Notes under the pieces: model-generated
What the model was told of the DNA's origin: nothing
Seen by the model: only the letters and a program-made list of their open reading frames with translations
Databases searched by the model: none
Assembly: GCA_027625915.1 (NCBI GenBank)
Contig: JANTQA010000048.1
Location: 1,364,001-1,428,000 of the forward strand
Length of the DNA stretch: 64,000 nt
Origin: Anaeramoeba flamelloides
Taxonomy: Eukaryota; Metamonada; Anaeramoebidae
Reading direction: 5' to 3'
Made by a program: the position numbers and the translations under genes
Shown here: one piece after another, positions 6,698 through 54,000 of the stretch
Position numbering within the stretch: the first letter of the stretch is position 1
Layout: each line of letters opens with the position of its first letter

Positions 6698-8917
6698 ATG
6701 TCTCTTCAAATTAATTTAGACAATTTGTCGTCTGTACCAAACCTTAAACTCTTTCGCGATTTTCAAACAAAAGAATTATTAAATATCTTATCCTCAATAA
6801 ATGCACCCAAAGGACTTGTGCTCGATCCAGCACTAGCTAACCCACTCACCTTAATTGTTGATGTTAGAACACTCAAGGTAGGATTGATATTTGTTTTAAA
6901 TAGTAAACAAAAAAAAAAACAAAAACAAAACAAGCACAAAAACAAAAATTAAAACCAGTCTCCAAACAAAAACAAAAACATAAATTCTTTCAAAGAATCT
7001 ACTTTTTGGGAGCAAAAATGAAAAAAAAAAAAATTTATCACCTTTTTTTTATTTTTTTTCACCACAATTCACATTCAAAAAATTTAATCTTCTCAAAATT
7101 CAAAATAAACAATAAAAATGAAAAAAATATGAAAAAAAAAAAAAAAAAAAAAAACAAAAAACAAATAAAAAATAAAAATAAAACAATTCCAATTACCAAC
7201 CCCAAAATAGAAATATGCTGTTGATCAACTCTTTTTGTTATCTTCAAAGCCCTTTGACACCTCCCTGACACATATTGTCTATTTAGTAAGACCAACGATG
7301 TCGAACATGAAAAAGATAGCAAAGCATATCCACCATTCTGAAAAGATTAACTCGAGTGTGACCGAGACAAGAAGAAGCAACCGAGAAGAGCAAGGAAACG
7401 AGACTAATCAAAAACGACAAAGGACGAATTATGTTTTCTTGGTACCACGTATTACCACGCTGTGCAGGAAACTGTTGGAATACTCTGGTGTGTTAGGCTC
7501 GGTTATTTTGGATGAATACCATTTGGATCTGATTCCTTATGATGAGGACGTCTTATCGTTGGCATACTCAAAAAGCTTTCGAGAATTCCTGAAGGGAGAC
7601 ACGTCTTCTTTGTTTTACATTTCGAGGGCGCTCCATAAATTGCAATCGTTTGTTGGCCAGGCGCCAAGACTACGATACTATGGCACTCGCTCGAAGTCCA
7701 TCGTCGAAATTTTGAGGAGACTGAGGAGGCAAGATCGACGGGAAGAAAGCAGCCAGCAGCAAAGCGAGAACAGCTCAAGCAGCTCCGTAATTAAGCCACA
7801 AATTGCAGAGATTCTCCTGATCGATCGGCATTTTGATTTAATAAGCCCCCTTGTGCACCAGCTCTCCTATGAGGGGATGCTGGACGAGTTATATGGGATC
7901 ACCGACACCGTTTTGGAATTGGATCCAAAAATCTTAAACAAGCCCAGAACGGGCAAAAAGGAAAGGATCCCACTAAATTCCAACGACTTGCTCTTTGCGG
8001 AAATTCGCGATCTTAACCAATCACAGATCGGGCCATATTTGTCGAGAAAGGCAAGGGAAATCATGGGTGGCTATGACGAAAGAAAGAATTTAAAAACCAT
8101 CAGGGAGTTCAGAAACTTTACGGGCAAGCTCGGGAAATTACAAAAGGAGCATTCGTCTCTAAGTACCCATCTCTCGATTGCAGAGGCCATTAACAAATAT
8201 GCCATGGAAGACCAACTGTTTCACCGGCTAATGAATTCGCAATTGACAGTGCTGACAGAATGCGAGCCCTGCTATGATTTTCTCGAAGAATTAATTTATC
8301 AAGAGGCGCCCATCGAAACAGTTTTACGTTTGTTATGCTTGCATTCCCTTGCACTAAACGGAATCAAATCAAAGAAACTGGATTTCTTTCGAAAGGAAAT
8401 TATCCAAACCTACGGATTCCAGCATATTATCACTTTGAACAACTTAGAAAAACTTGGCATGATCAAAAAATCAGAAGGACGATCCAAAAGATCCTATACA
8501 AACTGGAAAAAGCAACTGAACTTGATCGATCACGAATTTACCAAAAATAATGGTATCCATTCCGTGCACTCTGGCTATGCACCCATATCAATAAAGCTCA
8601 TTCAAGCTTTATACGAAAACTCGAAAAAGGATTATAATGAATTTATTCAAACTTACTTCCAAGATTCTTATGGAATTTACACACAAAGCTCCAAAAATTT
8701 AAATGAAGATTTGCAAGAATCTGAACAGCAAAATAGAAACGAAAAGGATATCGTTCTCGTTTTCTTTATTGGCGGAGTCACCTATTCAGAAATTTCCGCT
8801 TTAAGAATTTTAAATCAATCAGAAAATTTAAATGTTAGATTCATTGTTGGAACAACAGATATCACTAACGGAGATAAAATAATAAAAGCTTGTTCAAAAA
8901 AAACCTCAGAAAAATAA
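6698..8917 (+). CDS. VPS33: VPS33 (A-type), SM-family subunit of HOPS/CORVET
   Basis: VPS33 is the Sec1/Munc18-family subunit of the HOPS and CORVET tethers; it binds and templates SNAREs for fusion at late endosomes and lysosomes/vacuoles. Exon 1 is 6698-6877 (60 codons), exon 2 is 7211-8917 (568 codons plus TAA), giving 628 residues against about 600 in animal VPS33A. The junction is phase 0 and joins VRTLK to KYAVDQLFLL, which lines up with the LLKEHEVEKMF region of VPS33A as I recall it. Recognisable family segments: LVFL/YLVRPTM near 84, SVILDEYHLDLIPYDEDVLS about 153-172, ILLIDRHFDLISPL about 258-271 with QLSYEGMLDELYG, LLFAEIRDLN, VLRLLCLHSLALNG, IIQTYGFQHIITLNNLEK, HSGYAPISIKL, and the hallmark FFIGGVTYSEISALR near 577-591. 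Two lineage-specific charged inserts sit at about 102-132 and 235-252. The 5' half is clearly richer in G/C than its surroundings and the 3' end less so. A T/C tract ending TTCTTCAG just before the ATG could mark a 5'UTR intron. A- rather than B-type is a judgement from overall similarity. Confidence 0.93.
6878..7210 (+). other. VPS33 intron 1 (333 nt)
   Basis: Donor GTAGGA and acceptor AAAATAG, phase 0. The intron is almost purine-only on the plus strand (A-runs with G and C islands), so both strands are open in places (6763-6945 minus, 7006-7224 plus); those frames are by-products of composition. Confidence 0.85.
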
Positions 8918-21724: not shown

Positions 21725-24700
21725 ATGGACAATATGGAAGATGTCTTTGAGGCAGACTTTGCCTTTTTAAATGAAGATCCGCTGAGCGACGAAGAAACAA
21801 ACGAAATAAACATGCAGTTTTTAGGATGGGAATTATATTTCCCAGGAGAGCAAACGACGACACTTCAGTTAAGTGATCCACGTTTAGAAATCGTGGACAA
21901 GTCGCGCCAATTTTTCACAAAGAACGGGCTTCTCCTTAAGGAGATAACAGGAACGAAGGTGTTAACACTTGATAGCGAGTTTTTGATAACTTCCTTTGGT
22001 ATGACTGATCTACGTGAGCGTATCTCCAACCAACCACTTCAAACGTTGCCAGCAATTAGCTTGGGCCTGTACCAAATTGTGAACCAGGACAAGGAGGAAA
22101 ACGAACGAAGCGAAAAATTGAATGTGAGAATCATTGGGTGGAAGCCCTTAACGATGATCAGGATCATTCGTGCAAACTTTGTCAAGAAGCTGATTTCCCT
22201 ACGGGGGACTGTCATACGGGTGAGCGCAATTAAGCCCTTGGTTAAAGAGGTTGAATTTTCGTGTAGCCGGTGTGGCTCAAAGGTTAAAAAAATCTTTGAA
22301 GATGGCATGTTTGAATACCCGTCATGGTGCACCACCAGGGGATGCAAAAACCATATCTTCAAGCCAATTTTTGGCTCGACCAAAATGGTTGACTCGCAAA
22401 GGGTGCGAATTCAGGAGGCATTCGATTCGGGAAGCATTGACGCAGGCAGGATCCCGCGTACCATTGACTGTGAAATGACCGAAGACCTGGTTAACCAGTG
22501 TAGCCCGGGGGACGTCTTGACGTTCACTGGGATTGTCAAAACAACAACACTGGAGCTCCAGGGTTCAGGAGGAGGGTATTCGTCTGGGAACCGTGGCAAA
22601 AAGCAAAACATGTTTTATTTATATTTGGAGGCGCACTCTTTAATGAATAACAAGCAAAAGGAATCGTCAAGACTAGATCCCTCTGGGTTTTCCATTAAGG
22701 ACATGTATGCAATTCGAGACATTGCATCTGATCGCCGAATTTTCCGTTTAATTGTTAACTCCATATGCCCAAGAATCTTTGGACACGAAATCGTTAAGGC
22801 TGGACTGTGCTTGGCACTATTCGGCGGCACACAGCAAAACGAAGACGAAAAGCGCGGGAAGCTCTCAATCCGGTCTGACCCTCATGTGTTAGTTGTTGGC
22901 GATCCTGGTCTTGGTAAATGCTTGGGAAAAAATGTACCAATAAAAATTTATGAACCAATTACATTTGTGAAGCACAACTCATATGATCTCTACACCGCAA
23001 ACAGAAATAGAAGGATGAGCACCAAGAAGAATAACAATTTCAAAAAATTTGATAAAAAGTTGTATGTCCAAAAATTAAAAATGAGCCAAGACATCCAAAT
23101 TGGTGATTTATTAATTGGCGACGATTTCAAACCGAGATTAGTTTTGTCAACTTCAAAGGGTTATGGCCAATTATATAAAATAATACAAGATAATGGAAAA
23201 TCTTATATTGTCAACAAACATCATATTTTGACGATTTATGATCAAGAGAAAAATGAAATTGTTGATATTGAAATTTTAAAATTGGTTGACTTGATAACAA
23301 AATTCCAAAATAGATTTTATGGTGTTCGACTAATCCGAAAAACAAAGAAATTCTTCACCCAAATAAATAATTATAATAATAATAATAACAATAATAACAA
23401 TAACAATAATAACAATAATAATAAGGATAAGAAGAATATAAATAAAAAAGAGAAAAAGAAGGATCAAAAATATTATTATTCATATTCAAAATTAAAAATA
23501 AAAAAAATTAAGGAATACAACGAATGGTTTGGGTTTCAAATTTCTGGAAATGGAAGATTTTTATTAAGCGATAACACTGTCACACATAATTCACAAATGT
23601 TAAAGTCCTTAAGTAATATCGCCCCACGAGCCTTTTATGTTTGTGGTAATACTACAACTTCTGCGGGGTTAACGGTAAGTGTAGCAAAGGAAAGTACAGG
23701 AAGCTTTGTATTAGACGCGGGCGCTGTAGTATTAGCCGATCGGGGGATATGCTGTATTGATGAATTTGACAAAATGAAAACGGAGCACTCTTCATTATTA
23801 GAAGTTATGGAACAGCAAGCAGTTTCTATTGCTAAGGCTGGTGTTGTTTGCTCTCTTCCTGCTCGGTGTGCAATTGTCTGTGCAGCAAATCCCACTGGCG
23901 GCCACTATAACAAATCCAAAACAATTGCAGAAAACTTGAAAATAGGATCTGCATTGCTGTCTCGATTTGATCTTGTCTTTATTTTATTGGATAACCCTAA
24001 TGAGGAAAAGGATAAACTTTTATCAAAAAAAATAATGGATTTACATTCTGGCTCATTTGATACCAATAAATTCAAAACATCAGAATTTTCACAAAGACAA
24101 AGGAAAAGAAGAAGGAAAACAAATATGAACAATGATAAGAGGAATAACAATAACAACAGCCAGTCTATATATAATTTCTTTCAATCAACACAGAGTGTAA
24201 ATACCCTTCCAAGCACTTCGCTGATTGCAATAAATACCCAAAAGGACAAGCCATCCCTTGAAAAGCGGCTAACGGTTTCTTATAAGGAAGAATTTGACCC
24301 CGTGCCTTCGGCGTTATTGAGAAAATATGTGGGGTACGCGAAAAAATACGTCAACCCTGTTTTATCACAAGAATCAAAAAAAGTGATTTTCGATTTCTAT
24401 ATAAATTTAAGGCAAAAACACAAAACTATTGATGGTACACCAGCAACAACGAGACAGCTTGAGTCCCTGATCAGGCTGTCACAAGCAAGAGCCAAAATTG
24501 AACTTCGTGAAATCGTCACAAAGGAAGACGCAGAAGATGTAGTTGAAATTATGAGAGAATCTTTATTTGACACCTTTTCTGATGAATTCGGACAAATAGA
24601 CCTTTCACGTGGCAGTGGAATGAGTAAAAGAAAAGAGGCATTGAGATTTATCAAAGAATTGACACTAATTTCCAAAAAAAATTGTAAAAGGATTTTTACT

Positions 24701-24835
24701 AAAAATGAATTAAGAATAATTGTAAATGATTTACAACTTTCGATAAATAGTTTCCATGATTTCTTAGAAACTCTAAATACACAAAACTTTTTGTTAAAAA
24801 TAGGTACAAATTCGTATAAAATTCAAACAGATTAA
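21725..24835 (+). CDS. MCM8: MCM8 helicase, interrupted by a mini-intein in the Walker A loop
   Basis: MCM8 pairs with MCM9 as a hexameric helicase in homologous recombination and interstrand crosslink repair. The ORF is 1036 residues in a single exon; removing the 224-residue intein (399-622) leaves 812, close to animal MCM8 (about 840). Visible: an N-terminal MCM domain with a zinc finger C180-x2-C183-x18-C202-x4-C207; the AAA+ core with Walker A GDPGLGK (392-398) resuming at S623-Q-M-L; YVCGNTTTSAGLTVSV; Walker B IDEFDKM (D679-E680); sensor-1 Asn in AANPTGGHYN (N722); arginine finger SRFD (R747); and a C-terminal winged-helix-like region after about residue 960. The PTGGHYNKSKT stretch and the LLDNPNEEKDKLLS segment are MCM8- rather than MCM2-7-like. 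A low-complexity Lys/Asn/Gln insert lies near 780-830. The extein codons are clearly G/C-richer than the intein. Translation starts at ATG in AAAAATGG context. Confidence 0.95.
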   Translation: MDNMEDVFEADFAFLNEDPLSDEETNEINMQFLGWELYFPGEQTTTLQLSDPRLEIVDKSRQFFTKNGLLLKEITGTKVLTLDSEFLITSFGMTDLRERISNQPLQTLPAISLGLYQIVNQDKEENERSEKLNVRIIGWKPLTMIRIIRANFVKKLISLRGTVIRVSAIKPLVKEVEFSCSRCGSKVKKIFEDGMFEYPSWCTTRGCKNHIFKPIFGSTKMVDSQRVRIQEAFDSGSIDAGRIPRTIDCEMTEDLVNQCSPGDVLTFTGIVKTTTLELQGSGGGYSSGNRGKKQNMFYLYLEAHSLMNNKQKESSRLDPSGFSIKDMYAIRDIASDRRIFRLIVNSICPRIFGHEIVKAGLCLALFGGTQQNEDEKRGKLSIRSDPHVLVVGDPGLGKCLGKNVPIKIYEPITFVKHNSYDLYTANRNRRMSTKKNNNFKKFDKKLYVQKLKMSQDIQIGDLLIGDDFKPRLVLSTSKGYGQLYKIIQDNGKSYIVNKHHILTIYDQEKNEIVDIEILKLVDLITKFQNRFYGVRLIRKTKKFFTQINNYNNNNNNNNNNNNNNNNKDKKNINKKEKKKDQKYYYSYSKLKIKKIKEYNEWFGFQISGNGRFLLSDNTVTHNSQMLKSLSNIAPRAFYVCGNTTTSAGLTVSVAKESTGSFVLDAGAVVLADRGICCIDEFDKMKTEHSSLLEVMEQQAVSIAKAGVVCSLPARCAIVCAANPTGGHYNKSKTIAENLKIGSALLSRFDLVFILLDNPNEEKDKLLSKKIMDLHSGSFDTNKFKTSEFSQRQRKRRRKTNMNNDKRNNNNNSQSIYNFFQSTQSVNTLPSTSLIAINTQKDKPSLEKRLTVSYKEEFDPVPSALLRKYVGYAKKYVNPVLSQESKKVIFDFYINLRQKHKTIDGTPATTRQLESLIRLSQARAKIELREIVTKEDAEDVVEIMRESLFDTFSDEFGQIDLSRGSGMSKRKEALRFIKELTLISKKNCKRIFTKNELRIIVNDLQLSINSFHDFLETLNTQNFLLKIGTNSYKIQTD
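22919..23590 (+). mobile_element. mini-intein (MCM8 Walker A site)
   Basis: 224 codons in frame inside MCM8. Block A: Cys at intein residue 1 (C399 of the precursor, CLGKNVPIKIYE). The splicing fold continues with QDIQIGDLLIGDDFKPRLVL (residues 58-77) and block B SYIVNKHHILTI, whose second His (residue 102) aligns with the catalytic block-B His. Block F is EWFGFQISGNGRFLL (202-216) and block G ends in VTHN, with His223-Asn224 followed by extein Ser623. Between about 143 and 186 there is only a run of 16 Asn and Lys-rich sequence, far too short for a LAGLIDADG endonuclease. Block B and F wording resembles PRP8-type and large-DNA-virus inteins. The insert has no GT..AG ends at its borders and is open throughout, so it is not an intron. 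More A/T-rich than the flanking extein codons. Confidence 0.93.
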
Positions 24836-31600: not shown

Positions 31601-34600
31601 TTTTCTTTTTTTGTTTGTTATTTGGATTTTTATTTTTGAGGTTCCGAAGAAATTTTTTGTTAATTGCGTTTTTTGTCAAATGAGATCCAAAAAAAAATTT
31701 TTTCTTTGATTTATTTACGAGAATTTCTCTCATTTAGATCCTTTATTTTTTTTTTTTTTTTGTTCTTTGTTATTTGAATTTTTGTCAACCAAAAAATTTC
31801 AATTTTACAATTTCCTTTTTTTGTGATACAGATTCCTCATCTCCGGGTATGAAGATAATTCACCGATCTAGAGACAGACCATTAAGAGTTGTACTAAAAA
31901 ACCTTTTTAAATATTGAAATCCAATTCAAAATACAAAACAAAAAAAAACATTTCAGTAAAAAAAATAGTTTTATCTCAGAAAACTGATTCTTATTACATA
32001 AAAAAAAAAAACTAACCATACAGATATTTTACAAATGTGTGTACTAAAAGTTTTATGATTTGTACTCCAAACTGTTTGATTCACCGTTTTAGGCAGCTTG
32101 AGGAACAATTTTTAAAAATTTTAAATGGCACTTTTTTAAAGTAGCTGTATACAAATAAACAAAATAATAACTTTAAACCATTTTTAAAAGTATTTTTTTT
32201 TTATAATTTCAAGCAAGATAACAATTTTTTTACTAAATATAAAAATATGAAAATGAAAGTTTCTTTTATTATTCCATTTTAAGATGTTTATCCTCATTAA
32301 AATTTAAAAAAAAAAAAGAAAAGTTAATCACCACCGTCTCCTTAAAAAAAAAAAAAATTAATTAATTCCCAAATAATTTATTTATTTCAAAACAAAAATA
32401 GGTACTTCGGCAATTACAGAAAAAAAATGGTGAAATTGGTTCTGCATTATCACAAATACCAATTGAAGAAATAGTTGTTGGTGATATAATATATATCGCA
32501 TCTGGTTCAAAAATTCCAGCAGATGGTATTATAATTTCATCAAGTCAATTACAAATCGACGAATCAACATTTCTGGGGGAATCGCAATTAATTAGAAAGG
32601 ATAAAAATAAAAACCCCTTTCTCTATACAGGGACACAAGTACAGCAAGGTGAAGGAACCTACATTGCAACAGCTGTAGGCCAAAATTCGCAATATGGGAA
32701 AATTTATCATCAATTAAAAGAAAGTTCTCATTTAAAAGAAAAAACTCCATTGCAAGATAAACTTGAGATAATGGCAGAATTAATTGGTAAAATGGGGTTA
32801 TATAGTGCTATCCTAACAGTGATCTTTCTCTTAATTCAGCTTTTCATAAAAAATTGTAAGTAAATTTTATTTTGAAATTTTTCAAAAAAAAATTGAGTAT
32901 TTTAAAAACAAGAGTTTAGAATTTAATTGAAAAAATAATACTAATAATAATTTTATACCTTATTTTTTGTTACTCAATTACCAATCGAAAAGATCCTTAA
33001 AATGTTTTTAAGATTTTTTTACATTGATCGAATACCAATAAATAATTTTTTTTTTTTCTCTGGAATGAATGAGTTAACCTTATCTAAACAATTTGTTAAT
33101 TATGAGTCTATTTTTTGAAATTATAATTTCTTGTATTTCCAATTTAAAACTGCCAGAAAATACTCTATGTTGTAAAACTTTGTTATAATATCTGGAAATA
33201 TTATACAGACTTTTCTAAAATTAACCCAAGCGTGTATTAAGTTAATAATGTAAATAAGAGTGTTAATTTAAAAAAAAAAATAAACTCAATTTGAAAAAAA
33301 AAAAACATATAAAAAAAAAAAGGGGGGGTTATCAATTAATACTAAAAGTTTTCCAAAACGTTATTATATATAAAAAAATAAATATAAATATAAAAAACGA
33401 TTAAAAATAGGGGGTAACGGCTGGGACAGTTCGTATATCGTAAATATTGTTGATTCAGTTATTATTGGAATCACAATTGTGGTTGTTGCTGTACCAGAAG
33501 GCTTGCCGCTAGCTGTAACCATTTCTTTAGCTTATTCAATGAAAAAAATGATGAGGGATAATAATTTTGTTCGTAGATTGGAGTCTTGTGAGACTATGGG
33601 GAATGCAACTTGTATTTGCTCTGATAAAACAGGAACATTAACACAGAATCAGATGAATATTGTTAAAGGGATGATTTTTGGAGAAAATTATTCCAAAATG
33701 CCGGATTCAACTGAAATCATGGGTAAATGGAGAGACAAACTAATTGAAGGAATTGCACTTAATACCCGGGCGTTCGTCCAGCAATATCGTTCAAATTTAA
33801 CTCAAATCGTTGGTTCGCAGACAGAGGCAGGTTTAATTAGATTGTTGATTGATTGGGGGGTTGACTTTGAGCATATAAGAAAAAAATACCAAAATACTAT
33901 CACCGATGTTTATACTTTTGATTCAATAAGAAAAAGAATGACAACAATTCATAAAGTTGACGACAGTTATTGTATTTATACAAAAGGCGCTGCAGAATTT
34001 ATTTTGGATTCTTGCACAGAATACATCGACCAATCAGGCCAAATTAGTCGATTCGATGAAAATACGAAAAACAATTATCGTAAAATTATCCAATCAATAG
34101 CATCAGAGGGATTAAGAGTAATTGCACTTTCTTTTAAACTAAGTTATCAAGATCAAAATTTTAAAATTAATAGTAAAGAAGAAAATGAGTCTAATCATAT
34201 ATTATTTGCAATTTTTGGTATGATAGATCGAGTTAGACCAGGAGTTACAGAAGGTATTTTGATCTTTTTTATTTTTATTTTTATTTTTTATTTTATTTTA
34301 TTTTGGCTATTACGCCAAATTGAAAATACTTTTCAGAAACAGTTTTATAAATCATATATGCATATATGATACTGAAATTCAAAAATGAGGGAACAAGAAT
34401 TTTCAATATTTAATATCAAAATGTTAATTACTCCAGATTTATTTCTTCTCTTTGATATAACTAGGTATATATACATATTTGCGAATAATCAAAATAAATA
34501 TTATTTTCTCCTTCTTAAACATATAATTAAACTCAAAAAAAATTAAAATTAATGTGTCCAAATTTTGAAATGAAACGATTTTTTGTTACGAATAATTTAT

Positions 34601-37600
34601 TGAAAAAATCTAAATAATATCTTCCAATATTAACACCGAGATCCATAGTGTTTAACTATTATATGTTGAACTATTTATATTCTCGCTGATCATTAACTTC
34701 AATATAAATTTATTGAATTTTGAAGTAAAGTTTCATTTTAAATTTAAACTTTTTTTATTTTTTATACTTTTTATTTTTTCAAAAGTCACTTTTTTAAGTT
34801 GTTTGGGTTCCTTCGGTTCAATAAGTTCCTCCTCTTTTTGTTTTTTGAGGCGTTTGGGGGAGAAAAATGAATAAAGAATAAATAAAAATTGTTTTGATTA
34901 GATCTGACGCAAACAAACCAAACTTGTTCATGATCAGATCTAAAACTTATCAAAATGGGTTTATACAACTGATTCGAACTGAAGTGAATAGAGCCTAATT
35001 TTGGGTTCAATATGAAGATAGGATACTTGGACCACGTTAATACTGTCAAATCTTGTTTTCGCACAATCCCAGTCCAAGTAACGACTCGACAGATACTACA
35101 GAAAGTTCAATTCAGTTCACTTTGACTTGGTTTAAGATTGCATTTGTTGGATTCAGTTCTCTACTTTTGCATAAGTCCAGTTTGATTTGTTATAGATCTG
35201 ATCATGGGCAAGTTTGGTTCGGTTAGTTATGACCAAGTCTACCAATTCTCATAATGATTCTTTATTCCTTTTTCTCCCCCAAACGCCTAAAAAACAAAAA
35301 GAGGGTGAACTTATTGAACAGAAAGAACCCAAAAACTTAAAAAGGTAAATTTGGAAAAGGTAAAAAGAATAAAAAAATCAAAAACTCTTAATATTTAGGG
35401 TTTCAGAGAGTGTCGTAGAGTGCCGTAGAGTGCCGTTAGGTTTTCTGTTTTATTTGTGATGTGTTCTAGGTTTTTTTTTACTTTTTGAAATAAACAGAAA
35501 ATTTTAATAAATTTTCTTTTTATTTCAAAAAGTTAAAAAAACCTAACGAAAATCTACTGATTTTCCAAATATAATAGAAAACTCAAAAAAACCTAACGGC
35601 AGTTTTCCAAAATTCAAAAGAATAGTAAAATTTTTTATTTTACTCTATCCTTATAAATTATGGAAAAGCTAACGAAGTTTTTTTTTAATTTGAGAAAATA
35701 AAAGAAAATTTCCAAAATTTTCTTTTTATTTCTAAAATTAAAAAAAATATAATGGCAAACTAATTATAATTTATGAGATCACCTCTCTGGTAAAAAATAA
35801 AAAAAAACTAAACTTTTTTTACCCACAATTTGTTTTTAGAAAAAGCAAAGAATATATAATCAATATCAATTATAAAAAATAATCTAAAAATATATAAATT
35901 TTTACAAAATAATTCTATTTTTTAATTTAAATGGAGATAGAATAAAGTGCTTATTTTTTTAATTGTTAAGTGTATCCCCATTTTTGAATTTTAATTAGTA
36001 AAGGTTATTTCCAAAAAAATAGGATAAATTTGTTTTTACATTTCAAAAGATTCATCTTTGCTTTTAAAGCCACCCTATACCTAAATTTGTAATATCAAAT
36101 TAAGAGAAAATATTCGTACTAATTAAACCAGTATTATTATATGTATGTCAAAATTTATCCATCAAAATAATCCCAAAAAATGAAAAAAATGTACTTTTTT
36201 ATACTAAATGAGTCCAATAAATTCAATAAAAAACTGGCAATGGGATAACGATCCAAATGATTCTTAAACCAAAAAAGTGCAGTTATATGTTTTTAATTCT
36301 ATTGAAAGTTTTATGAGATTAAACATCTTATGTTAAAAAACGATTTTTTCGATCAAAAAGAAAATAATAATAACCTATTTTTACCGACTGATAATAATAC
36401 CATATAAAATTGAGATCAGAAACTTTAATATCTGTTCATAAAGTAATTCCCTTGTAAATAAACAAATTGGATCAACATTAAGACTCAATACATCATGAAT
36501 AACAATTTTGGATATTTCAATTGAATTTATTAATGATATTTTAAATTTTATTTGCATTACTTTTTTAGAAATTCTTAATATCTAAAATGAGTGAAAGTGT
36601 TAAAATATATAATTTCCAATTTGTAATTATTAAAAAATAATTTAATAGTGTTTTTTTTATTTTTATTTTCATTTATTTTACTCTATACGTGTTAAATAAA
36701 TCGAGTTTTCCATCTAAATGTGACAATTTTTTGGATATTGTTACTTGTTGTGAAAGACTCATTTTTTTGTGAATAAATACTTTTTTGGAATTAGTAATTT
36801 TTTCGCGAAAAAACACACAGTTTAAATGGAAAAGTACGTTTTTTCGTGAACAAAACACGTCCAATAATGGTTTGTTGAAAAATACTAAATCAAAAAAGAG
36901 CATTTTGTTTCAGATATTAATTAAAAATATCAAAAATTTCTTTGGAAAATAAAACCCTGATAAAAGATTTCAAACTTTTAATTGTATCTTTATTTATCCA
37001 GCTGGACAAAAATACAATAAAGTAAAAGTAAAAATAATTTTTAATAAAATAATTAAAATCCTAAATTCAGAGACAAAATAAACAATTAACAGCCAATTGG
37101 GAAAAAGAGTGTTGAAATCTAGTTAGAAGAGTTTATTTTCAAAGGTATTTTACCTTCAACAAGTTAAATTCTCAAGAAAAAAGTCAAATTTCCATTCTTA
37201 TCAAAGTGATCGATTAAAAAACAAAAAATTTCAACTTTAGTGTTGAAATTTCTCTCAAATTTAAAATTTTGAAAAGAAGAAGAACAAAAAGAAGATACTA
37301 TGCTTTTCAAGCAATCGTTATTATTTTGTTATTGCATTGTTCTGATATTTAAAAAGGCTTTCAAAAATCGAAACTTCTCCTTTAGTATTGTAGATACTTT
37401 AGAAAAGTGTTAAACAGAGGGTAACCAAATATAGAAATTCAGAAGGGCCAATAGTAATATACAAAATGTTTTATTTTCAATAGCAACATATTATTCTAGG
37501 CTATATTAAGAAACGATAATTTATCAAAAGTTGTTACTTGGTAGATCAAAAGGATAGGTAAATTTGGCACAATAAAAAAAAAAAAAATTCAAATATTTAC

Positions 37601-39951
37601 TTTGATCTAATCATTAATATTTTTTTATTCATTTTCGTAAACAATTTTTTTAAAGATTGGTTTGTTGTTCAAAAAAAATTTATCAATTTGTAAATCGATA
37701 TTTTTAATTAAAAAACTTGATTAAGATATTGATTTGGTAATTTTACAAAATTGGGTTTTCTCAAATTTAAAAAAAAAATATTATTGGACAAAATGATTGT
37801 TTTTAATTTTTGCAAAATTGGTTATTTCAAATACTTTTTCGGTAGAATTGAGTTTTTTTGTGAAAAGATATCTTTTCGCGAAAATGTAAGTTATATGCAA
37901 AATAAATGGCATTTCAACACAAGAATTACATTATCGTGTTTTCTAGACTTTTAAATAAAAAGACTAATATTTTTTGTTATTTTTTGAACATACAATTTAC
38001 CAAAAAATCTAAAATTTTTATTATTTTAAAAAAAAACCAAAAAAAAACAGCTGTTAATGACGCACTACGAGCTGGTGTCGAAATAAAGATGGTTACTGGT
38101 GATGGTCTAGAAACTGCAAAGCATGTTGCACTTGAATGTGGTATTTTGCGAAATGGTGGTTTAATAATGTCTGGCTTTGAATTTCGAAAATTACAGCACG
38201 AAGAAAAAAAAAAAATTATACCAAATTTACAAGTCTTAGCAAGGTCATCACCACAAGACAAATATGAATTGGTGAGTATTTTACAAGAAATGGGTGAAAT
38301 TGTTGGTGTTACTGGGGATGGTACAAATGTATAAATTATTTTTAAGAAAATCTTTTATTTTTGATCCACTATTAATTTTTTTTTTATAATTATGTTCTTG
38401 AATATATATGTTTATGTGTATGTATGTCCATGTGTATAAATATAAATAATAGGATGCATTAGCATTAAGAAAGGCAGATGTTGGTTTGTCAATGGGTATT
38501 TCTGGGTAAATTTTATTGATTTTAACTTAATTTATTTATATTGTCCATCTCTAACATTTTTTTTATTCAAAAGTTTAAAAAGCAAATCCCAAATAATGAT
38601 TTTATTTCTAAAATTTTTATGTAAAATCTATTATCATCATAAATATTCCTATATACTTATCAATAATTACAATTTTTTTACTATTCTCTCTATATCTCAT
38701 TATTAATTATTTACACAAATATGATAATTAATAGAACAAATATTGCTCAAGAAGCTAGCGATATAATTATTTTGGATGACAATTTTAAATCAATAGTTGT
38801 TTCAAGTAAATTAATAATTTTTTTTTTCAATTTTTTTTTTTTTCAAATAAAGAATCCAACTAAATTATCCTTGTGTCTTATAACCACTAACTTGGAATAA
38901 TAAATATATTATTCTCTCGAGATTTGGTATAAACAATTAGAAAATTGATGTTAGGATGGTTCAAATTCAGTGTATTGTAAATTGGTGTTTAGTGCTATTA
39001 CATTCTCGGTAGCCCCCATTTTAAATTATTAATTTTTTTAATGTTAATATATATATATATATATTACCAACAAAGTCAATTCCTCAAAAGATTTAAAAGA
39101 TGAAATCTTTATAAATAATACTTGTTAAGCAACTGAAGCTGTTTGAAAATTTTCAAAAATCAATTTTATTAAGATATAATCTACTTGGATAATTTATTAC
39201 GATTGATTGGTTTTTTTTAACAAAGTTTTGTTTTAAATTATAATAATTTTTTTTTTTTTTTTTTTTTTGGAATATTTCAATAGTAATTTGGGGAAGATCT
39301 GTATATGACAACATTAGAAAATTTTTGCAGTTTCAACTGACAGTTAATGTTGTTGCTCTTGTTACAAGCTTTTTAGCAGCCGTTTCAGGAAAGGGCATTC
39401 CATTAAAAGCTGTGCAATTGCTTTGGATTAATTTGATAATGGACACCCTTGCTGCACTTGCACTTGGAACTGAACCACCATCAAAGTCGTTATTAAACAG
39501 AAATCCATATAAAAGAAGCTCTTCATTGCTGAGTAATAAAATGAAAAGAAACATCGCTTGTCAATCAATTTTCCAATTATTCGTTTTACTGTATATAATT
39601 GTTGCAGGTCCAAAAATTTTTAACCTTGATGTTTCATTGGAGGATGAACGCTACCACCTTGAATGCATTGTATTTAATGTTTTTGTTATGCTGCAAGTTT
39701 TCAATGAAATTAATTGTAGAAAAATTGAGGATCAACATGATATATTTGAAGGGATTACCAAAAATAAAATATTTTTATATATTATAATTGGAATATTTAT
39801 TACGCAAATCCTAATCATTGAGTTTGGTGGTTCTTTCTTTTCAACAACGCATCTAAATGCTAAAGAATGGTTTTATTCGATATTTTTTGGTTTAATGTCA
39901 ATTCCAATCGGATTTTTAAGTAAAAAAATAAAAATAAATACCAATGAATAA
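28680..39951 (+). CDS. plasma-membrane-type Ca2+-transporting P-type ATPase, seven exons
   Basis: A P2B Ca2+-ATPase exporting Ca2+ to the cell exterior or into vacuoles. Exons: 28680-29144, 32402-32855, 33411-34253, 38051-38328, 38453-38505, 38735-38805, 39284-39951; phases 0,1,1,0,2,1 all agree and give 943 residues, shorter than animal PMCAs because there is almost no C-terminal tail after the last helix (no calmodulin-binding tail visible). A TTG at 28665 precedes in frame, but the ATG at 28680 is the natural start. Motifs: NDYQKEKQF before the A-domain; PADG; DEST-FLGES (213-216, usually TGES); PEGLPLAV in M4 (335-342); phosphorylation site CSDKTGTLT with Asp378; FDSIRKRMT; KGAAEF in the nucleotide domain; DRVRPGV (579, usually DPVRP); VTGDG (usually TGDN); TGDGTND across the exon 4/5 junction (675-681); M6 WINLIMDTLAALAL with the Asn and Asp Ca2+ ligands; and FNEINCRKI near the end. 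Introns: 3257, 555, 3797, 124, 229 and 478 nt. Confidence 0.93.
29145..32401 (+). other. Ca2+-ATPase intron 1 (3.26 kb)
   Basis: GTAAGT..AAATAG, phase 0. About a third is a dispersed repeat (29390-30600) that reappears at 57.7-58.9 kb; 31440-31810 is a T-rich stretch with a degenerate repeating unit (about TTAGATCCT...TTTGTTATTTGAATTTTT). No coding frame. Confidence 0.8.
29390..30600 (+). repeat. 1.2-kb diverged dispersed repeat, copy 1
   Basis: Collinear and same-orientation match to 57710-58920. Shared anchors in order: AGTAATAGAGT; ATTAAACCTGT; AAAAAATCA; TTATCATTTTTAAAA; AAGAAAAATAAATCAAATAT; TGATCATTTAT; ATATTCTTTTTCAAATATTA (the best conserved); ATTAATGTGAATTAGTTTTA; AAGTCTATT; TTATTAATTATTGAT; AATTCCTTCA; and a final TTTACT/TAGCCCCTTAA block. 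Presumably an old mobile element or duplicated segment. Confidence 0.75.
34750..35378. mobile_element. fold-back element (about 630 bp)
   Basis: Long imperfect palindrome. The outer arms (about 34750-34890 and 35255-35378) pair through GGCGTTTGGGGGAGAAAAA, TTCAATAAGTTC and CTCTTTTTGTTTTTT; an inner pair matches AAACTTG..CATGATCAGATCTA at about 34919-34948 with its complement near 35190-35217. Only about 200 bp in the middle is unpaired. It is visibly G/C-richer than the surrounding intron. A 92-codon minus frame inside is a by-product. No transposase. Confidence 0.85.
35400..35760. repeat. cluster of hairpins after the fold-back element
   Basis: A near-perfect palindrome at about 35468-35548 (arms AGGTTTTTTT.ACTTTTTGAAATAAA and complement, short loop), flanked by GCCGTTAGGTTTT (about 35433) and its complement AAAACCTAACGGC (about 35590), plus a weaker third stem at about 35690-35745. 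Upstream, AGAGTGCCGT is repeated in tandem. Confidence 0.75.
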
Positions 39952-43913: not shown

Positions 43914-46900
43914 TTATAAATTAATTTTATCTAAAATATTATTCCAAAACCAAACAGTAAGCTTATTACCAAATTCATTGAAATATTTCTTTTGATCATT
44001 TGAAATAATAATTTCTTTTTGATTAGGATTGTTCCATTCTTTAATACAAATATCGAAATTAAATTGAAAGGTATTTTTGTTGAAATAATAATGTAGAAAT
44101 AAATTTTCTGGTCTGAAAACGATTAAATGCCTGATTGAATTATTTTCAAAAATATTAATTGTTTTAATATGAGAATAGGATGTTTGGATGTGGTTAAATA
44201 ACAAAGATTGTGCTTGCTTTGTGCCTTCTATTATCCGAGCTAAATGTGGGTCTACTGATTTTAAAGAAATAAATTGTGACATTTTGATTAAAGTAAGAAA
44301 TTCGAGGGGGGTATCTAATTCTGATATATTATTATTTAATTTATTCCATAACTGTTCAAGCTGATAGTTTTGAATTGATTTATTTATTAAGTTTACAAAA
44401 AAATCTTTAAAAATTAAAAAATTTCCATTCTTTTTTTGTTTTTTTTCAAAATATGATAGATTTATGAAATTTAAGAACAATTCTTTATCTTGATGTTGAA
44501 ATAATAAGACAAAAATTGAATATTCATCAAGATCTTTTTTATTATCCCCATTCTTTTTATTTTGATCAGATTTTTTATTTTTATCAGATTTTTTATTTTT
44601 CATTATATAACCATTATTATATAGGCCAATCGTTGATTTTTTATAATAAATATAATTAAATTTCTCAATGTCTATCTCCAAATCAATTGATTCCAAAAAT
44701 TGGTTTAAATTAATATCTATTAATAAATTAATTTTAAAAGTAGTAAGGAAAATTGAATATTTGGAACGAATGGTATAATTAGATAATTGTGAAATATAAT
44801 TATGAATCGATGAATTGCATTCTTTTATGGGATAGCTTAACTCTTCTTTTAATAACAATGATTTAAAATTTTGGATGAATAGGTTATGAATGCTATTAAT
44901 AAAATTAATATTTAATCGAATTTCAGAAAGCTGATTTGAAATTTTATCAAAATAATTGTTATTATTACTGCTCTGGTTATCATTATGGATATGGTTATGG
45001 CAATTGCTATGATTTAGATTATTTTTATTACTATTACTACCGCTGTTTAATAAATGATAATGATTTTCATTCTTTGGTATACAATACATATTTAATTCTA
45101 AAAATTGTTTCGAAATTACCAATTGTAATATTATTGGTGAAATTTTTGATTTTTTTAAAATTTTCCAAAAATGTGTTGAAAGTTTTTGTTTTTGGTTGAA
45201 TAGAATTGGTTTCATTCCAAAGTTTATTAACTGTTTGGTATATTGCTTTAAAATGTTAAATAATAATAATGCATTAAATGATTTAATTCGATCTATATTT
45301 TTCAAGTTCAAGTTTTTATTGTGAGTAGAATTAGTAAAAATTGGGAATTTTTCAACAGATATTTGTTTTGAAATACGAAGCAAATCTCTAATTTGTTTTT
45401 TGTTTGTTGAAATTGTTTTTAATTTCCAAAAATTTTCAGTTTCTTTAAAAATTCTCGTTCTTTTTTTTTTATTAGAACAAAATTCTATAATATTAAAAAA
45501 AGAAATTAATTGGTATTGTAGATATTTATTAATTAATAAAGATTCTTTTTTTTTATGATGATCATTATCATTATTTTTAACCTTATTCTTAATGTCATGA
45601 TTATCACTGATTTCAGTGTTTTTAGAAATATTATCAATATTATAAGTATCATTTAATTTTGTAGTATTTAAATTTATAATGGGTTCTTTATAATATTTAT
45701 AATCCATATAATTAATATAATGATAAAATAAATGGTCAAAATATTTGATCCATCTTTTTAAAAATTGTGGTTTTATTGTATTTTCAAATAATTGTTTAAA
45801 TAAAAAGTTATTATTATAATGATCAAATTTATTATTTTTTAAATTTAATTTATTTTTTGAAGTATTATTGTTCTTTTCTTTATTATTTTGATTTGTATTA
45901 CTGTTGTCATTATCATTATTTATATTATCCGTTTTATTAATACTGTTATTTATATTTATATCTATATTATTATTCTTATTATTATCTAAATTAAAATTCT
46001 CTGAATTATTATTGTTGGTGAGTGTGTTCTTATTGAAATTTTCTTTTTCGTCATTATTGTTATTGTTATTTTCTATGTTGGGGTTTATATTATTATTATT
46101 ATTATTGTCAGTATTACAATATTTAAAAGTGTTATTCGTTAATAAAGGAAGTCTTTTATTTTCTTTTGTTTTAATTATTGGTACATGGTAAAAACCTAAT
46201 TTTTGCAAATTTATTGATTCCATTAATAAAAATTGTTTTTCAATTTTTTCAATTAAATTATTAATAAACAAAAATAAATGTGTGTTTTGTTGTTGTGTGT
46301 ATTTATATGTATAAATTGTTAAATTACCATTCGAACAAAATATTAAACAAATATTTTTTAAATTTATTTTTTTCTTTTTTTTTTTTTTCTTATTATTTAT
46401 TTTTTTAAAATTAATTATTTGGTAGGATTTTTTTAATTTGAATTTATTGCTTTTTTTATTTCTTTTATTTGTGCTTTTTCTTTTTATATAAGTTTTTCTT
46501 TTTTTCTTCAGAACCTTGTTTGATTTGATTAATTTGTTTTGTTTGCTTTGAATTATATTTTTTGTTTTATTTTTTTTAAATCTAATTTTATTTCTTTCCA
46601 TTTTTTTTTTTAAATAATTATTTCCATGTTTTTCATCATTTGTTACAAGTTTTTTTTTATTACTATTATATTCATTAATTATAAAATCGGATGTATCTGA
46701 ATTAGTCTCATTATTATAAAAGATTTTAGATTTGGTATGTGTTTGTATTTTTAGTCCAAATTCCGAATTTGTTTCTGTATCGGTTTCGATTTCGGTTTCA
46801 ATTTCGGTATCTGTTTCGGTATCTATATTTGCATTGGTGTTTGTTTCTGTTTCCATTTCTGTTTCCGTTTCCGTTTCCGTTTCTATTTCTATTTCTGTTT

Positions 46901-48879
46901 CTGTTTCTGTTTCTGTTTCTGTTTCTGTTTCTGTTTCTGTTTCTGTTTCTGTTTCTGTTTCTCCTTCTTGTTGTTTTTGTTCCCACTTTTTTCTTCCTGT
47001 TTTTAATTGTAATTTTCCAAAATTTTTACTTCTTTTTAGATTATAAATATTGTTTTTATTATTATCATTATCATTGCTTGTATATGTAAAGGTGTCTGTA
47101 TCTGTATCTGTATCTAAGGAATAATCATTAAAATTTATTTTTTTTTTTTTCAATCCCCGATTTTTTTTATTATTATTAGAATTTGAAAAGTTTAATCCTG
47201 AAGAAATCATGATCACCGAACTTTTTTTGAGAGTAACTTCATTATTAAAATTTTCAAATTCGATAATTTTGTCACTTTTAATTTTTTTTTTAAATAATAA
47301 TGGATTATTTGATTTATTATTAATTTTTAATATATCTAGCAAATTATTAAAAAAGGAAATCTTTGACCATTTTGGTAAAAATAAATTTGAAGAAAATTTA
47401 TTTAAAGTGTTGGTTTCAATTGAATTCGAAAATTCTAAAATTTTATTAACTAAATAGATTTGTTGAATTTTCAAATCACTTGCGAAATAAGATTGTAATA
47501 AATATTCACAAATTGTTTGATAAAATTTTTGTTTTAAACAATCCTGTAATTCGGATATATTTATTGAGCCGTGTATTACAATTTCAAATAATAAATATTT
47601 GCATTTTTTTATTTTTTCGTTTATTATCTTTTTGTTATTATTGTCACTATTATTATTTAAATTATTGTTTTCCTTGTTCTTTTTTGATTTTAATTCGAAA
47701 AAGCTAGTATATTTTTTTGGAATTTTTAAATTTAATTTTGGAAATTTTAAGTCATCCTTATGCAAATTGGCAATGATTGGTATATTAGTTTTTTTAAATT
47801 TATTTGTAATGATTTGATAATTTTTATTCATTGGACTTAAAAATATACTAATTAATCCAGAGCTGTGAAATGCTGTGCTTTGAGATTCATAATCATCATC
47901 GTCACTCCTTACAAAAATTAATTCACTCGGTGATAATGTGTTATAATTTTCATCTTGGCTATCATATTTGAAAAAATTTTTTGTGAAATTTAAAGTCGAA
48001 CAAATTTTATTAAACTTTGAGCTAAATTTTTGTATAAAATGGTATTTATTATTTATAAATTTAGGGATTTTTATAGAAAAGGTTTGTTTTTCTGTACTTA
48101 AATCAAATTCGAAATTCAATCGATCGGAATATAATAATTCAAAATCTCTTTTATTTAATTCAAAAATATTATTTTTTCCTAAAAATGTTGAAAATTTTAG
48201 CAAGTTTTCACTATTAATTTTTGCCTTAATCTTATTAATTAAAGTTTCAGTAATTTCTTTGGTTGGGTTTTCGATACCGTAAAATTGAAGTAAGAATGAA
48301 AATTTTCCTCCTATTAATTTTTCCTTTTCGTTAATGTTGTTGTAATTGTTATTATTGTAATTATTTGTAATATAACTGTTGTTTTGATTATAATTATTAT
48401 TTTGGTTATAATTGTTAAAATAATTCAATGGTTTGTTCTCAAGGCTCTCATTAATTGACTGTGGTAACATTATGGATCTTCTATAATTACTTGAATCTGA
48501 AAAGGTTGATTTGGTTTGAGAAAAAAAATCTGAATCTATTGAAGAGGTATTATTAAAATTTCTTCTTTCCGGTTGCAAAGATGATAAATTAAAATTATTA
48601 TTAAATGTTTTACTATTTTTATTGTCTTGGAGAAAAGAATTATTAATGTTTTGAGAAGAAATCCATTTTAGATCAAAATTTGAATCGATGTTTTTTAATT
48701 GGTTTGATAGTATATTGATATTTTCATTGGAATTTTCTTCAAGTTGAAACATTCGCCTTTCTTTATTATTATTTTTGTTAAAATTAAAATCAATATTATT
48801 AGTATTGTTACTGATGTTGTTTATATTAGTAGTCGTATATGTATTATTATTATTATTATTCTTGTTCTTATTCTTGTTC

Positions 48880-48919
<40 letters not shown>

Positions 48920-49628
48920 CAGTTGTGATGTTGGTAAAATTATTATTAATCTTAAAGGGGATTTCATTTTCTTGGAAATTATATTTTTCTTGTTCATGGA
49001 TTATTTCAATAGTAAAATAAAAAATATTTTTATTCGTTTCTTGAATAACAAATAAATCATTTCTATTTTTAACTTGGTGACTTTTTATTATAACCAATTT
49101 TAATTTCTCAAACAAATGAATTGAATTAACACGATGTGGTAGTGGTGGTGTTATTTCGATAGAAAATTGATTTTGGCATTTAAATTGACCATTTTCAAAA
49201 TATTTTGATTTTTTTTCATGGTTGTAATCTATTAATTTTGGTGCAATTAATAAATTGGAACTAATTTTCGTTTCAATTAATTGATTTAATAAATATTTTT
49301 GATTCATATTTAAAGTGGTTTTTTTTATTAGTTTTTTTATTTGTTCTAAAAATTTTTTTCTTTGGTTATTTAATATTTTTCTTGAATGGAAAAGTATTTG
49401 AAAATTTTTATTTTTTAATATTTTTATTGATAACCAATATTTATAATCAGTACTTTCATTGTTGTTCTTGAATTGATTGCTGTTCTTGTTATTTTTAGAA
49501 TTAATATTTATTAAGTTAATGAGATAATAATTATCAAAATTGTATAAAATTTTAAATTTATTTTTTATTAAATATGTTTTGAATAATTTTTCAAAATTAT
49601 TTTGATTGCTATTTTTAGAATTATTAAT

Positions 49629-49676
<48 letters not shown>

Positions 49677-50932
49677 ATTGGTGCTATTACTATTACTACT
49701 ACTTGAAATATCAAAATTATCTGAATTAATGTTACTAGTAATTATAGTAGTCTTAGAATCGGTATTATTATTATTATTAGAATTACTATTATTATTAAGA
49801 TTGTTAAAATTAATAAATTTATTTTTTATTACAAAAAAATCTATGAATTTATTTCTGAAAGAAATTAATTTGGTTAAATGATAAATAATTGAAAAGGTGT
49901 CTTTGCTAATCGGCCTAGAGAGTTGTAATCTATAAATGGTTTCTTCATGTATCAGCCCCTTTATATCATAATAAAGTTTCTTTAATTTTGCAAAGCAGTT
50001 ATATTTGTCTTGTTTATATTGGGTGTTCTTATTTTTGGCGTTTTTATCATCTGCTAATATTTTATTAATGTATAAGGAGTCTGTTGGCAAGGATAAGACA
50101 ATTATATGGATTGATAATTTTTTATATTGATAATCGTGGATTTTTTGATTATTGTATCTGTGGTTTTTTGGGAAATCAGTTGGTAAGCTATCTGTGATTG
50201 GCAATGGGTCAGTTTTTCTATTGATCTGTGGATAATTTAAATTACTACCATGATTGGAGACAAATTCGAGATCAAATTCTAGTAATTGGCGAATTGATAT
50301 AAAAAATGGTGAATCAAATTCCGATTTTAAAAAATAAAAATTCCTTTCACCATTCAATAAATTTTGAAAATCGGTATTAATGATTTTTAAATATCTTTTA
50401 GAAAAATTTTTATTCAATTCTGTTAAATTTAATGAAGAGTAGGACCCTTTTAAATTTTGGGTGGCTTTAACTAAATGTGTTAATTCAATTTCAGTCGGGA
50501 ATTTAGCACAAATCTCGATAATTTTGATAATATCGTTAAATAAAAAATGGTTATTGGTTTGGATTAAGTTATAAAAGCATTTGACATAATTTGAACTAAA
50601 TTCTTTATCAATCATGTTTTCAAACTCCTTGAAATAATAAGTGGTTTGGGTATCATTATTTCCCTTTTCTGTCTCTTCATCATAAAAAACGTCCTCGCTA
50701 TATGATAATGGTGAACATGAAGAAAGTAAAAGGTTTATATATTGTTCATTATCATCAGTTTGTATTAATTTGGTAGTAATGTTACACCTTTTCCAAGTTT
50801 GAAAGCTAATTAGAAATCCATTTAAATTTAAATTCTTAAAATTTTCCCAACTTGGTATTGCAGATAGTATGATTATATCATTAAACACCTTTGCAAATAA
50901 ATAGCCCTTTTTGTCGTCATTGTTGTTGTTGG

Positions 50933-51009
<77 letters not shown>

Positions 51010-54000
51010 TTGTCAATATTGTAATTGTGGCTATTGTTTTTATTTTTGATGGTAGTTGTATTTGTTTTTGAAATGTGAGTAGTAGAATCTTCAATGGTAT
51101 TAAAACGTTTAATTTTTAATATATCTAATTGTCCAAAAAGATATTTATACTCTGGATAATAATCCCAACTCAGGTCTTGTTTTAAATCTTTCATAGGGAT
51201 GGTAAAATCTGATACGGTTTCTACAGATTTTATAAAGCTTTTGTAAAATTGTTTTGTGATCAAGTCATCATAAATATTTTCAAAGGGCGCAAAATATATA
51301 AAATGCTGATCAGAATTCATTAGCAGATTTAAGTCAAATGGTATCCTTTTAGAAATGGAATTTGTATTGTTTTCAATATATGAGCTTTTATTATTATCAA
51401 AAAAATTAATCCCATTATTGTTCTGGTTTTTGTTTATATTTTTTTTATTTTTTTGATTATTATTGCATAATGAATATAATAAATCAAATGTATTAATTTC
51501 AGAAATTATTTGTAAATCAGTTTGGAAAAAATATTCTGTTAATTCATAAAATAATTTCTCAAGACTAATTTCAAGTATATCTGGTCCTAATGCATACCCA
51601 ATGCAAAACTGTGGTTCTAGCCAAATAGTGATGGTCAAAATATCAGGTGAATTTACTATTAAAAAATAATGCATCATTGTAAGAGAGTGTACACCTTTCT
51701 CAACATTTAATCCAATTTCTTTATAAAAGCATTTTTTGTTTTTTTTATTGTCCAATATAATAAAATTTTCATATAATCTTTTAAAGAATAATCGCTCAAT
51801 AACTGTATTTAAAGTTTGTGGATATTCCAAAGAATAAACCCATGTTTTTTTCAAATTATATGATTTGATGACATTCTGTGGGGGGATTGTAAATGGCGAT
51901 AAAAGATCTTTTGTTTGAAGTAAATTTCTATTCGAAGAGTCTCGAGAAATTGAAAATAATATATCCGAATCCTTATGAATTTTTTTATGTAATTTATTTT
52001 CTTCAGATTTGAAGAATATTATTTCATTTCTTTCTGGATTAAAAAATGGTCCCATTTTTCTTGAACATATATGAAAACATTGACTATAATAATCCTCTTC
52101 TTCCTCTTCCTCTTCATCCTCTTCTAGATTTTCTTGTTGCGTTTGTTGTTGATATTGTTCTTGGGGTTGTTGTTGTTGGTATTGTTGCTGCTGCTGTTGT
52201 TGCTGCTGCTGTTGTTGTTGTTGTTGGTATTGCTGTTGTTGTTGATCTTGATCTTGATATTGTTGTTGTTGTTGAAATTGTTGTTCTTGTTGATGTTTTT
52301 CTTGCTGTTGTCGGAGCTGTTGTTGATATTGCTCTTGCTGTTGTTGAAATTGTTGAAATTGTTCTTGTTGATATTGTTGTTCCATTTGTTCTTGGTATTG
52401 CAATTGTTGTTGATATTGTTGTTGATCTTGTTGTTGTTGTTGTTGTTGATATTGCTCCTGTTGTTGTTGATCTTGATCTTGATATTGTTGGAGCTGTTGT
52501 TGAATTTTTTCTTGCTGCTGGTTTTGTTCTTGTTGATACTTTTCTTGTTCTTTTTGGTATTGTTTTTCTTGTGGTTGAAGTGGTTCTTCTTCTTTTTGGG
52601 ATTGTTCCTGTTGATACTTTTCTTGTTCTTGTTGAAGTTGTTTTTCTTGCTGCTGTTGCTCTTGTGGCTGCTGTAGTTGACGTTGCTTTTGTTCCTGAAG
52701 ATATTGTTGCTCTTGATCTTGTTGGAATTGTTGTTCCATTTGTTGTTGAAGCTGCAATTGTTCTTGGGTTTGTTGTTGTTCTTGTTGCTGGTATTGTTGA
52801 AGTTTCTTTTGTTCCTGAAGATATTGTTGCTCTTGTTCTTGTTGGAGTTGTTGTTCCATTTGTTGTTGCCACAGCAATTGTTGTTGATATTGTTGTTGTT
52901 CTTGTTGTTGTTGAAGATATTTTTGATGTTCTTCTTGGAGTTGGAGTTGTTGTATATCTTGTTCTTGTTCTTGTTGATCTTGATCACTACATTGTTGTTG
53001 AAGTTGTTCTTGCTGCTGTTGCTCTTGTTGCTGTTGTAGTTGAAGTTTCTTTTGTTCCTGAAGATATTGTTGCTCTTGATATTGTTGGAATTGTTGTTCT
53101 TGATTATCGTGTTCTTGGTCTTGTTGATCTTGATCACTATATTGCTGTTGTTGTTGAAGATATTTTTGATGTTCTTCTAAGAGTTGGAGTTGCTGTATAT
53201 CTTGTTCTTGTTCTTGTTCTTGTTGATCTTGATCACTACATTGTTGTTGAAGTTGTTCTTGCTGCTGTTGTTGTTGCTGCTGTAGTAGAAGTTTTTGTTG
53301 TTGCTGCTGCTGTTGTTGTTGTTGTTGATATTGCTCTTGCTGTTCTTGTAGCAATTGTTCTTGATATTGTTGGAATTGTTGTTCCTGTTGCCGTTGTTGA
53401 TATTGTTCTTGAAGTTGGAGCTGTTGTTGGTATTGTTGTTGTTGAAGTAGCATTTCTTGTTGTTGTTCTTCTAGGAGTTGGAGTTGCTGTTGTTGTTGTT
53501 GTTTTTCTTGGACTTGTTTTTGATCTTGTTGATCTTGATCTTGATATTGTTGTTGAAGTTGTTCTTGCTGCTGTTGCTGATGTTGTTCCATTTGCTGTTG
53601 CCACAGCAATTGTTGTTGGTATTGTTGTTGTTCTTGTTGTTGTTGAAGTTGTTGTTGTTGTTGTTGTTGTTGATATTGTTCTTGTTGTTGGTATTGTTGT
53701 TGATCTTGTTGGAATTGTTCCTGTTGATACTTTTCTTGTTCTTGTTGAAGTTGTTTTTCTTGTTGCTGTTGGTGCATTTGAATTTGTTGATACTTTTTCT
53801 GTTCTTGTTGAAGTTGTTGTTGTTTTTGATATTGTTGTTGTTCTTGTTGTTTTTGTTGTTTTTCTTGCCTTGGTTGTTCCTGTTGTTGTTGAATTTGTTC
53901 TTCTTCTTGCTGTTGGAATTGTTCCTGTTGATACTTTTCTTGTTCTTGTTGAAGTTGTTGTTGTTTTTGATATTGTTGTTGTTCTTGTTGCTGCTGTTGC

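Follow-up and report, generated by a model that had tools for sequence, protein, structure and literature searches.

A candidate mini-intein in the Walker A loop of a nuclear MCM8 from Anaeramoeba flamelloides

The metamonad Anaeramoeba flamelloides, an anaerobic amoeba, has two nuclear MCM8 genes; the one described here carries an in-frame insert of 224 codons within the Walker A motif of its helicase core. We think it very probable that this insert is a class-1 mini-intein that would splice out to leave a working MCM8, and that it is old, vertically inherited and without the homing endonuclease it once had. The gene lies in a stretch of 64,000 nucleotides of contig JANTQA010000048.1 (assembly GCA_027625915.1, positions 1,364,001 to 1,428,000, forward strand), which is called the window here and whose numbering is used throughout. 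The insertion point is between Lys398 and Ser623, GDPGLGK/SQML, and joining the flanking parts (exteins) yields GDPGLGKSQML, the same as the empty site of homologues. An initial annotation of the window had proposed a 224-codon in-frame insert at this place, and its coordinates were right to the base.

Results

The precursor and its features are as follows.

21725..24835, + strand: MCM8 precursor open reading frame, 1036 residues in a single uninterrupted frame, stop codon included (Pfam and PDB matches)
21725..22918, + strand: N-extein, residues 1-398, ending in GDPGLGK (guanine plus cytosine (GC) fraction 0.451)
22898..22918, + strand: Walker A motif through its Lys, GDPGLGK, residues 392-398
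22919..23590, + strand: predicted intein, 224 residues (codons 399-622, 672 nucleotides; Pfam PF05203, PDB PRP8 and gp41-1 inteins, fold)
22919..22921, + strand: Cys1, step-1 nucleophile, invariant in a seven-intein alignment
22946..23059, + strand: insertion of about 38 residues (10-47, approximate edges) near the intein N-terminus, partly disordered in the model (32-45)
23213..23224, + strand: block B, Asn99-x-x-His102, both columns invariant in the seven-intein alignment
23351..23458, + strand: low-complexity Asn/Lys-rich linker, residues 145-180 (36 residues), predicted local distance difference test (pLDDT) below 50
23516..23590, + strand: blocks F and G, YNEWFGFQISGNGRFLLSDNTVTHN, with the terminal His-Asn
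23591..24832, + strand: C-extein, residues 623-1036, starting with the +1 Ser of SQML and holding the rest of the AAA+ core, the lid and the MCM8 winged helix
24608..24829, + strand: MCM8-specific winged-helix domain, residues 962-1035 (Pfam PF25051, 3.3e-21)

Translation of the frame at 21725..24835 (+) gave no internal stops. Pfam placed an MCM OB domain, an AAA+ core in two pieces, a lid and the MCM8 winged helix in the protein (PF17207, PF00493, PF17855 and PF25051, the last, WHD_MCM8, at 3.3e-21), and the best PDB sequence match was to DNA helicase MCM8 chains (1.1e-191). Nuclear MCM8 as the host, as first annotated, is thus borne out. When the joined exteins were used to search for homologues, 5400 passed, and 119 of the best 120, which were listed, had the empty site GDPG[LM]GK/SQ[ML]L. 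The only occupied site among them, GDPGLGK/CLGK, was in P0001, the paralogue of the window gene; no other Anaeramoeba MCM8 was among these 120. Frame reading and the comparison with empty sites both agree with the annotated Walker A location.

The insert reads as an intein by its residues. The initial annotation had listed a block A Cys, a block B His, block F and a terminal His-Asn followed by Ser, and all are present in the sequence. Nucleophiles stand at both class-1 positions (Cys at 1, Ser at +1), and the insert ends in THN (His223-Asn224) before the Ser. In block B, His102 is present, with Asn99 where the textbook T-x-x-H has Thr; Asn takes that position in 65 of 68 scripted motif matches among 72 inteins, those of the window and P0001 included. 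Read in its five remaining frames, the insert contains 7 to 34 stops, and none of 2000 mononucleotide shuffles was stop-free (mean of 22.2 stops over 500 shuffles).

Profile and structure comparisons pointed the same way. The insert scanned alone matched Pfam Hom_end_hint (PF05203) at 32.1 bits (1.4e-07), which is at the cut-off; in a scan of the whole protein the match was 27.0 bits, below the 32.1 cut-off. The best PDB sequence matches were PRP8 and gp41-1 inteins (E values of 0.0017 to 0.024), and an AlphaFold model has a Hint fold whose nearest solved folds are PRP8 inteins. The profile search, set beforehand as a check on Hint-fold similarity, therefore found it. NCBIfam intein models gave no match on the insert, and neither Pfam nor NCBIfam scans matched a homing endonuclease family in it. 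Its low-complexity linker occupies, in the alignment, the place of the extra endonuclease-bearing stretch of long relatives, and of the 16 inteins aligned, those from the two Anaeramoeba MCM8 copies are the only ones with the insertion of about 38 residues. Taken together, the profiles and the model, along with the retained Cys1, block-B His, His-Asn terminus and +1 Ser, argue for a mini-intein, as annotated, that is predicted to be competent for splicing.

Removal of the insert as an RNA intron, an alternative raised in the initial annotation, is contradicted by the genomic sequence and by an enumeration of excisions. A spliceosomal intron that is open in frame by chance would suit the base composition, since the insert is far more AT-rich (GC 0.251) than its flanks (0.451 on the N-extein side, 0.35 on the C-extein side), and GT-AG introns occur in Anaeramoeba genes according to the available part of PMC11550330. 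However, pairing donors from 22800-23300 with acceptors from 23300-23760 (GT-AG, GC-AG and AT-AC) allowed 618 in-frame excisions that keep the reading frame open, and none restored GDPGLGKSQML; 4 kept any Walker A motif, all with GC or AT donors. The RNA intron was rejected within these limits. The insert also has the intein fold and motifs, and its protein is conserved between the two MCM8 copies (dN/dS, the ratio of nonsynonymous to synonymous divergence, 0.29). An intron is almost certainly the wrong explanation.

We searched the A. flamelloides assembly (254 Mb, 76 contigs), in which the intein-split MCM8 occurs twice. P0001 (1061 residues) is letter for letter a frame on another contig (C21). 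It belongs to the MCM8 family and has the same intein at the identical insertion site; its exteins are 89.4 and 89.9% identical to those of the window gene, whereas the intein is 77.7% identical and 8 residues longer. Synonymous divergence (dS) between the copies was 0.555 for the exteins (dN/dS 0.102), 0.376 for the intein (dN/dS 0.294) and 0.536 for the N-terminal Hint part (dN/dS 0.154), and dN/dS was 0.04 over residues 623-780. The catalytic residues are retained in both copies. These identities and divergence values fit a single intein that would predate the MCM8 duplication and would have been under moderate purifying selection since.

Two stretches count against so smooth a picture of divergence. 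Over the last 40 intein codons dS was 0.048, and extein codons 223-259 were similarly low, with 1 synonymous difference in 37 codons. Synonymous divergence of the copies is accordingly patchy, near zero in two stretches compared to about 0.55 over the exteins, and short conversion tracts between the copies may therefore exist.

The intein could instead be a non-splicing relic, with this MCM8 copy either dead or functional unspliced. The exteins are under tighter constraint than the intein, low-complexity sequence stands in place of an endonuclease, and a second MCM8 copy exists, so that loss of one would be tolerable. However, catalytic residues are intact in both copies, and the strong constraint on the exteins, strongest at residues 623-780, would make little sense if Walker A stayed split. 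We consider a relic very unlikely.

A search with the intein region recovered 14 further proteins (P0002-P0015), of which P0009 and P0010 have one intein in common. In all 14 the intein comes directly after GK, with S or T as the next host residue; the final GKC upstream of the intein end was used to set its start, each protein had one, and the 14 align at Cys1. Their hosts include superfamily 1 and 2 helicases, a GspE-like ATPase, an RLI-like ATPase and one MCM. PF05204, which we take to be a homing-endonuclease domain, was listed in 10 of the 14. A scan of viral contigs gave 209 relatives, and of the 80 loci retained from these 63 had a block-F match. Cys came straight after GK in 56 of the 63, a biased count because the script that placed the start required GK; the other 7 had no such start by this script. 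The 56, which represent 45 distinct inteins, all have S or T at +1, and 46 conform to a Walker A pattern ([GA]xxxxGK or [GSA]xGK), the rest being looser.

These viral and metagenomic P-loop inteins (P0002-P0015, L121-L200) are the closest in sequence to the MCM8 intein outside Anaeramoeba. Like it, they are flanked by GK on one side and S or T on the other, mostly have N-x-x-H in block B, and end in GF...GRFLL...HN. In contrast to its 224 residues, most are 266-369 residues long, with a few minis of 136-138, and their hosts differ. In P0012, a metagenomic RLI-like ATPase, the P-loop intein ends in GFQISGNGRFLLSDFTVTHN followed by Ser, very close to the MCM8 one. Cryptococcus PRP8 inteins are likewise eukaryotic nuclear mini-inteins, and among solved structures they come closest in both fold and sequence, but their host is PRP8 and their insertion site is unrelated.

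The insertion site itself is known from archaea. MCM-a (CDC21-1) inteins lie straight after the Walker A Lys, as given in the available text of PMC3972481, PMC10643990 and PMC6801210, and archaeal genomes that we fetched have GDPGTGK/C...HN/SQ, exactly the same insertion point with the same +1 Ser (Pyrococcus, Haloarchaea and others). Our pattern scan of archaea gives lower bounds: 120 stretches were read, at least 70 were clean inteins by our criteria, and some matches were plainly chance. This site is what would favor an archaeal MCM-a intein, acquired either together with its archaeal MCM or by transfer out of such a gene. However, in a 93-row tree a branch with 100/100 support splits 35 archaeal MCM-a inteins, out of the at least 70 clean ones, from the MCM8 and the viral and metagenomic P-loop inteins. 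(This tree omits P0010 and viral inteins under 200 residues or sharing their first 120 residues with another; a 58-row tree omits P0010, P0007 and all archaeal rows.) Descent from archaeal MCM-a was rejected on the 93-row tree, and we regard it as highly improbable.

By tree and alignment the MCM8 inteins group with the viral and metagenomic P-loop inteins inserted after GK, apart from the archaeal MCM-a lineage despite the identical site. The same Lys/Ser pair has therefore probably been used by two intein lineages. The trees have long branches, the MCM8 rows deviate in letter make-up and the bootstrap was unsettled, all of which temper this grouping. Both trees place L159, a frame on a viral contig that looks by eye like a primase-helicase, next to the MCM8 inteins as their nearest neighbor (support 98/91 in the 58-row tree, 89/96 in the 93-row tree); because the branches are long, we claim no donor.

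In-frame inteins are also present in MCM4 (2 copies), MCM6 (3), MCM5 (2) and MCM3 (2) of the same genome (L210-L218; contigs C1, C30, C26, C34, C76, C24, C32 and C13). One copy of each MCM was identified against PDB, and one intein of each was scanned. All four passed Pfam Intein_splicing, as did all nine in the genome search, and each had one or both NCBIfam intein-end models past the cut-off. These four match Intein_splicing and not Hom_end_hint; the MCM8 intein is therefore of another kind. The inteins of MCM3, MCM5 and MCM6 lie 27 residues after the Walker A Lys, and that of MCM4 22 residues after it. For archaeal MCM-b (CDC21-2) inteins, which share the host family, the accessible portion of PMC6801210 gives a distance of 27 residues, and that of PMC3972481 places archaeal MCM inteins at positions 335 and 362. 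The MCM-b site differs from that of the MCM8 intein, and the likeness of the MCM3, MCM5 and MCM6 inteins to MCM-b is one of distance only. Uncut MCM loci also exist, on C26, C76 and C48, each with a single unbroken match to the MCM domain (positions 2-224 of 224). Genome-wide, PF14890 gave at least 19 matches in 15 frames, 11 of them over the cut-off, and PF05203 at least 6 matches in 4 frames.

A second P-loop intein, of 274 residues (SSGK/C...HN/T), was seen in a Brr2/ASCC3/Hel308-type helicase (L227, contig C57, position 4152632). Beyond the two MCM8 copies, it is the nearest match of the MCM8 intein in the genome (33% identity over residues 52-123, E value 1e-7). Close kinship of the two was rejected in the tree, where L227 has an end branch of 4.42 and falls outside the group of the MCM8 inteins; an intragenomic jump between this helicase and MCM8 may therefore have happened or not. 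Long frames on C24 and C32 (L219-L222) look PRP8-like by eye and have two PF05203 matches each. More frames, of 1532-2233 residues, on C29, C12, C70, C76 and C37 have Intein_splicing matches, several below the cut-off.

Elsewhere in the window, 7235-8917 (+) encodes a Sec1-family protein and 33479-39951 (+) pieces of a P-type cation ATPase, both ordinary nuclear genes. A Gln- and Asn-rich frame of 4186 residues at 43914-56474 (-) had no Pfam match (E value 0.001), and the opposite strand of its repeats has a long frame rich in Val, at 52046-54145 (+), that is probably a repeat artefact.

Discussion

We infer the following course for the MCM8 intein. The 1036-residue precursor would be translated whole, and the Hint domain would remove itself by an N-S acyl shift at Cys1, transesterification to Ser+1, cyclization of Asn224 and a last acyl shift to a peptide bond, ligating the exteins into an 812-residue MCM8 whose Walker A is whole. 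As long as the intein parts the P-loop Lys from its Ser, productive ATP binding would not be expected of the precursor. The intein would descend from a widespread P-loop-invading lineage, would have lost its homing endonuclease, and would have been inherited vertically since before the MCM8 duplication. It would persist because only precise loss keeps MCM8 working.

A post-translational switch on recombination, suggested in the initial annotation, is speculation. Here the cell would control splicing, for example by redox, and so hold MCM8, and hence recombination, inactive. The insertion site should abolish Walker A before splicing, MCM3, 4, 5 and 6 of the same genome also carry inteins, and conditional splicing of mycobacterial DnaB inteins is reported in the available parts of PMC6195587 and PMC7360933. 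However, a neutral parasite with no route to imprecise deletion is equally expected to persist in a functional hot spot, and a conditional switch seems to us improbable.

The statement in the initial annotation that no MCM8 intein had been described is out of date. The NCBI record of P0001 is named "intein-containing DNA helicase mcm8 precursor [Anaeramoeba flamelloides]", so the MCM8 intein is already known at database level. A 2023 PNAS paper (10.1073/pnas.2306381120), known to us from citation, is reportedly entitled "Massive intein content in Anaeramoeba", and its abstract is said to put the number of inteins per strain between some tens and about a hundred. Added here are an MCM8 intein at the archaeal MCM-a site yet in another lineage, and the MCM3, MCM5 and MCM6 inteins at the MCM-b distance; that paper may already report this comparison of lineage with site, the MCM-b coincidence, both or neither. 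Literature searches for intein together with MCM8, and for "Anaeramoeba flamelloides" with inteins, found no paper; Anaeramoeba with intein found PMC12722695. A 2018 intein survey of eukaryotes reports 257 inteins from 231 species, a total that covers both nuclear and chloroplast ones, and its main text does not contain the string MCM.

Nuclear inteins are rare in eukaryotes, judging by the 2018 survey, and in A. flamelloides a DNA-repair helicase would depend on a parasite leaving its catalytic loop. The coincidence of site with a different archaeal MCM lineage supports the P-loop as a recurrent intein target, since unrelated ATPases share this conserved motif. Protein splicing could even gate much of the MCM family: MCM8 and MCM3, 4, 5 and 6 would each need their intein to exit, the rate of splicing could set origin licensing and recombination, and convergence would have brought different lineages to the archaeal MCM-a and MCM-b sites within the MCM paralogues of a eukaryote. 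We think this unlikely. The MCMs of A. flamelloides are nevertheless a system in which joint control of several helicase subunits by splicing can be tested.
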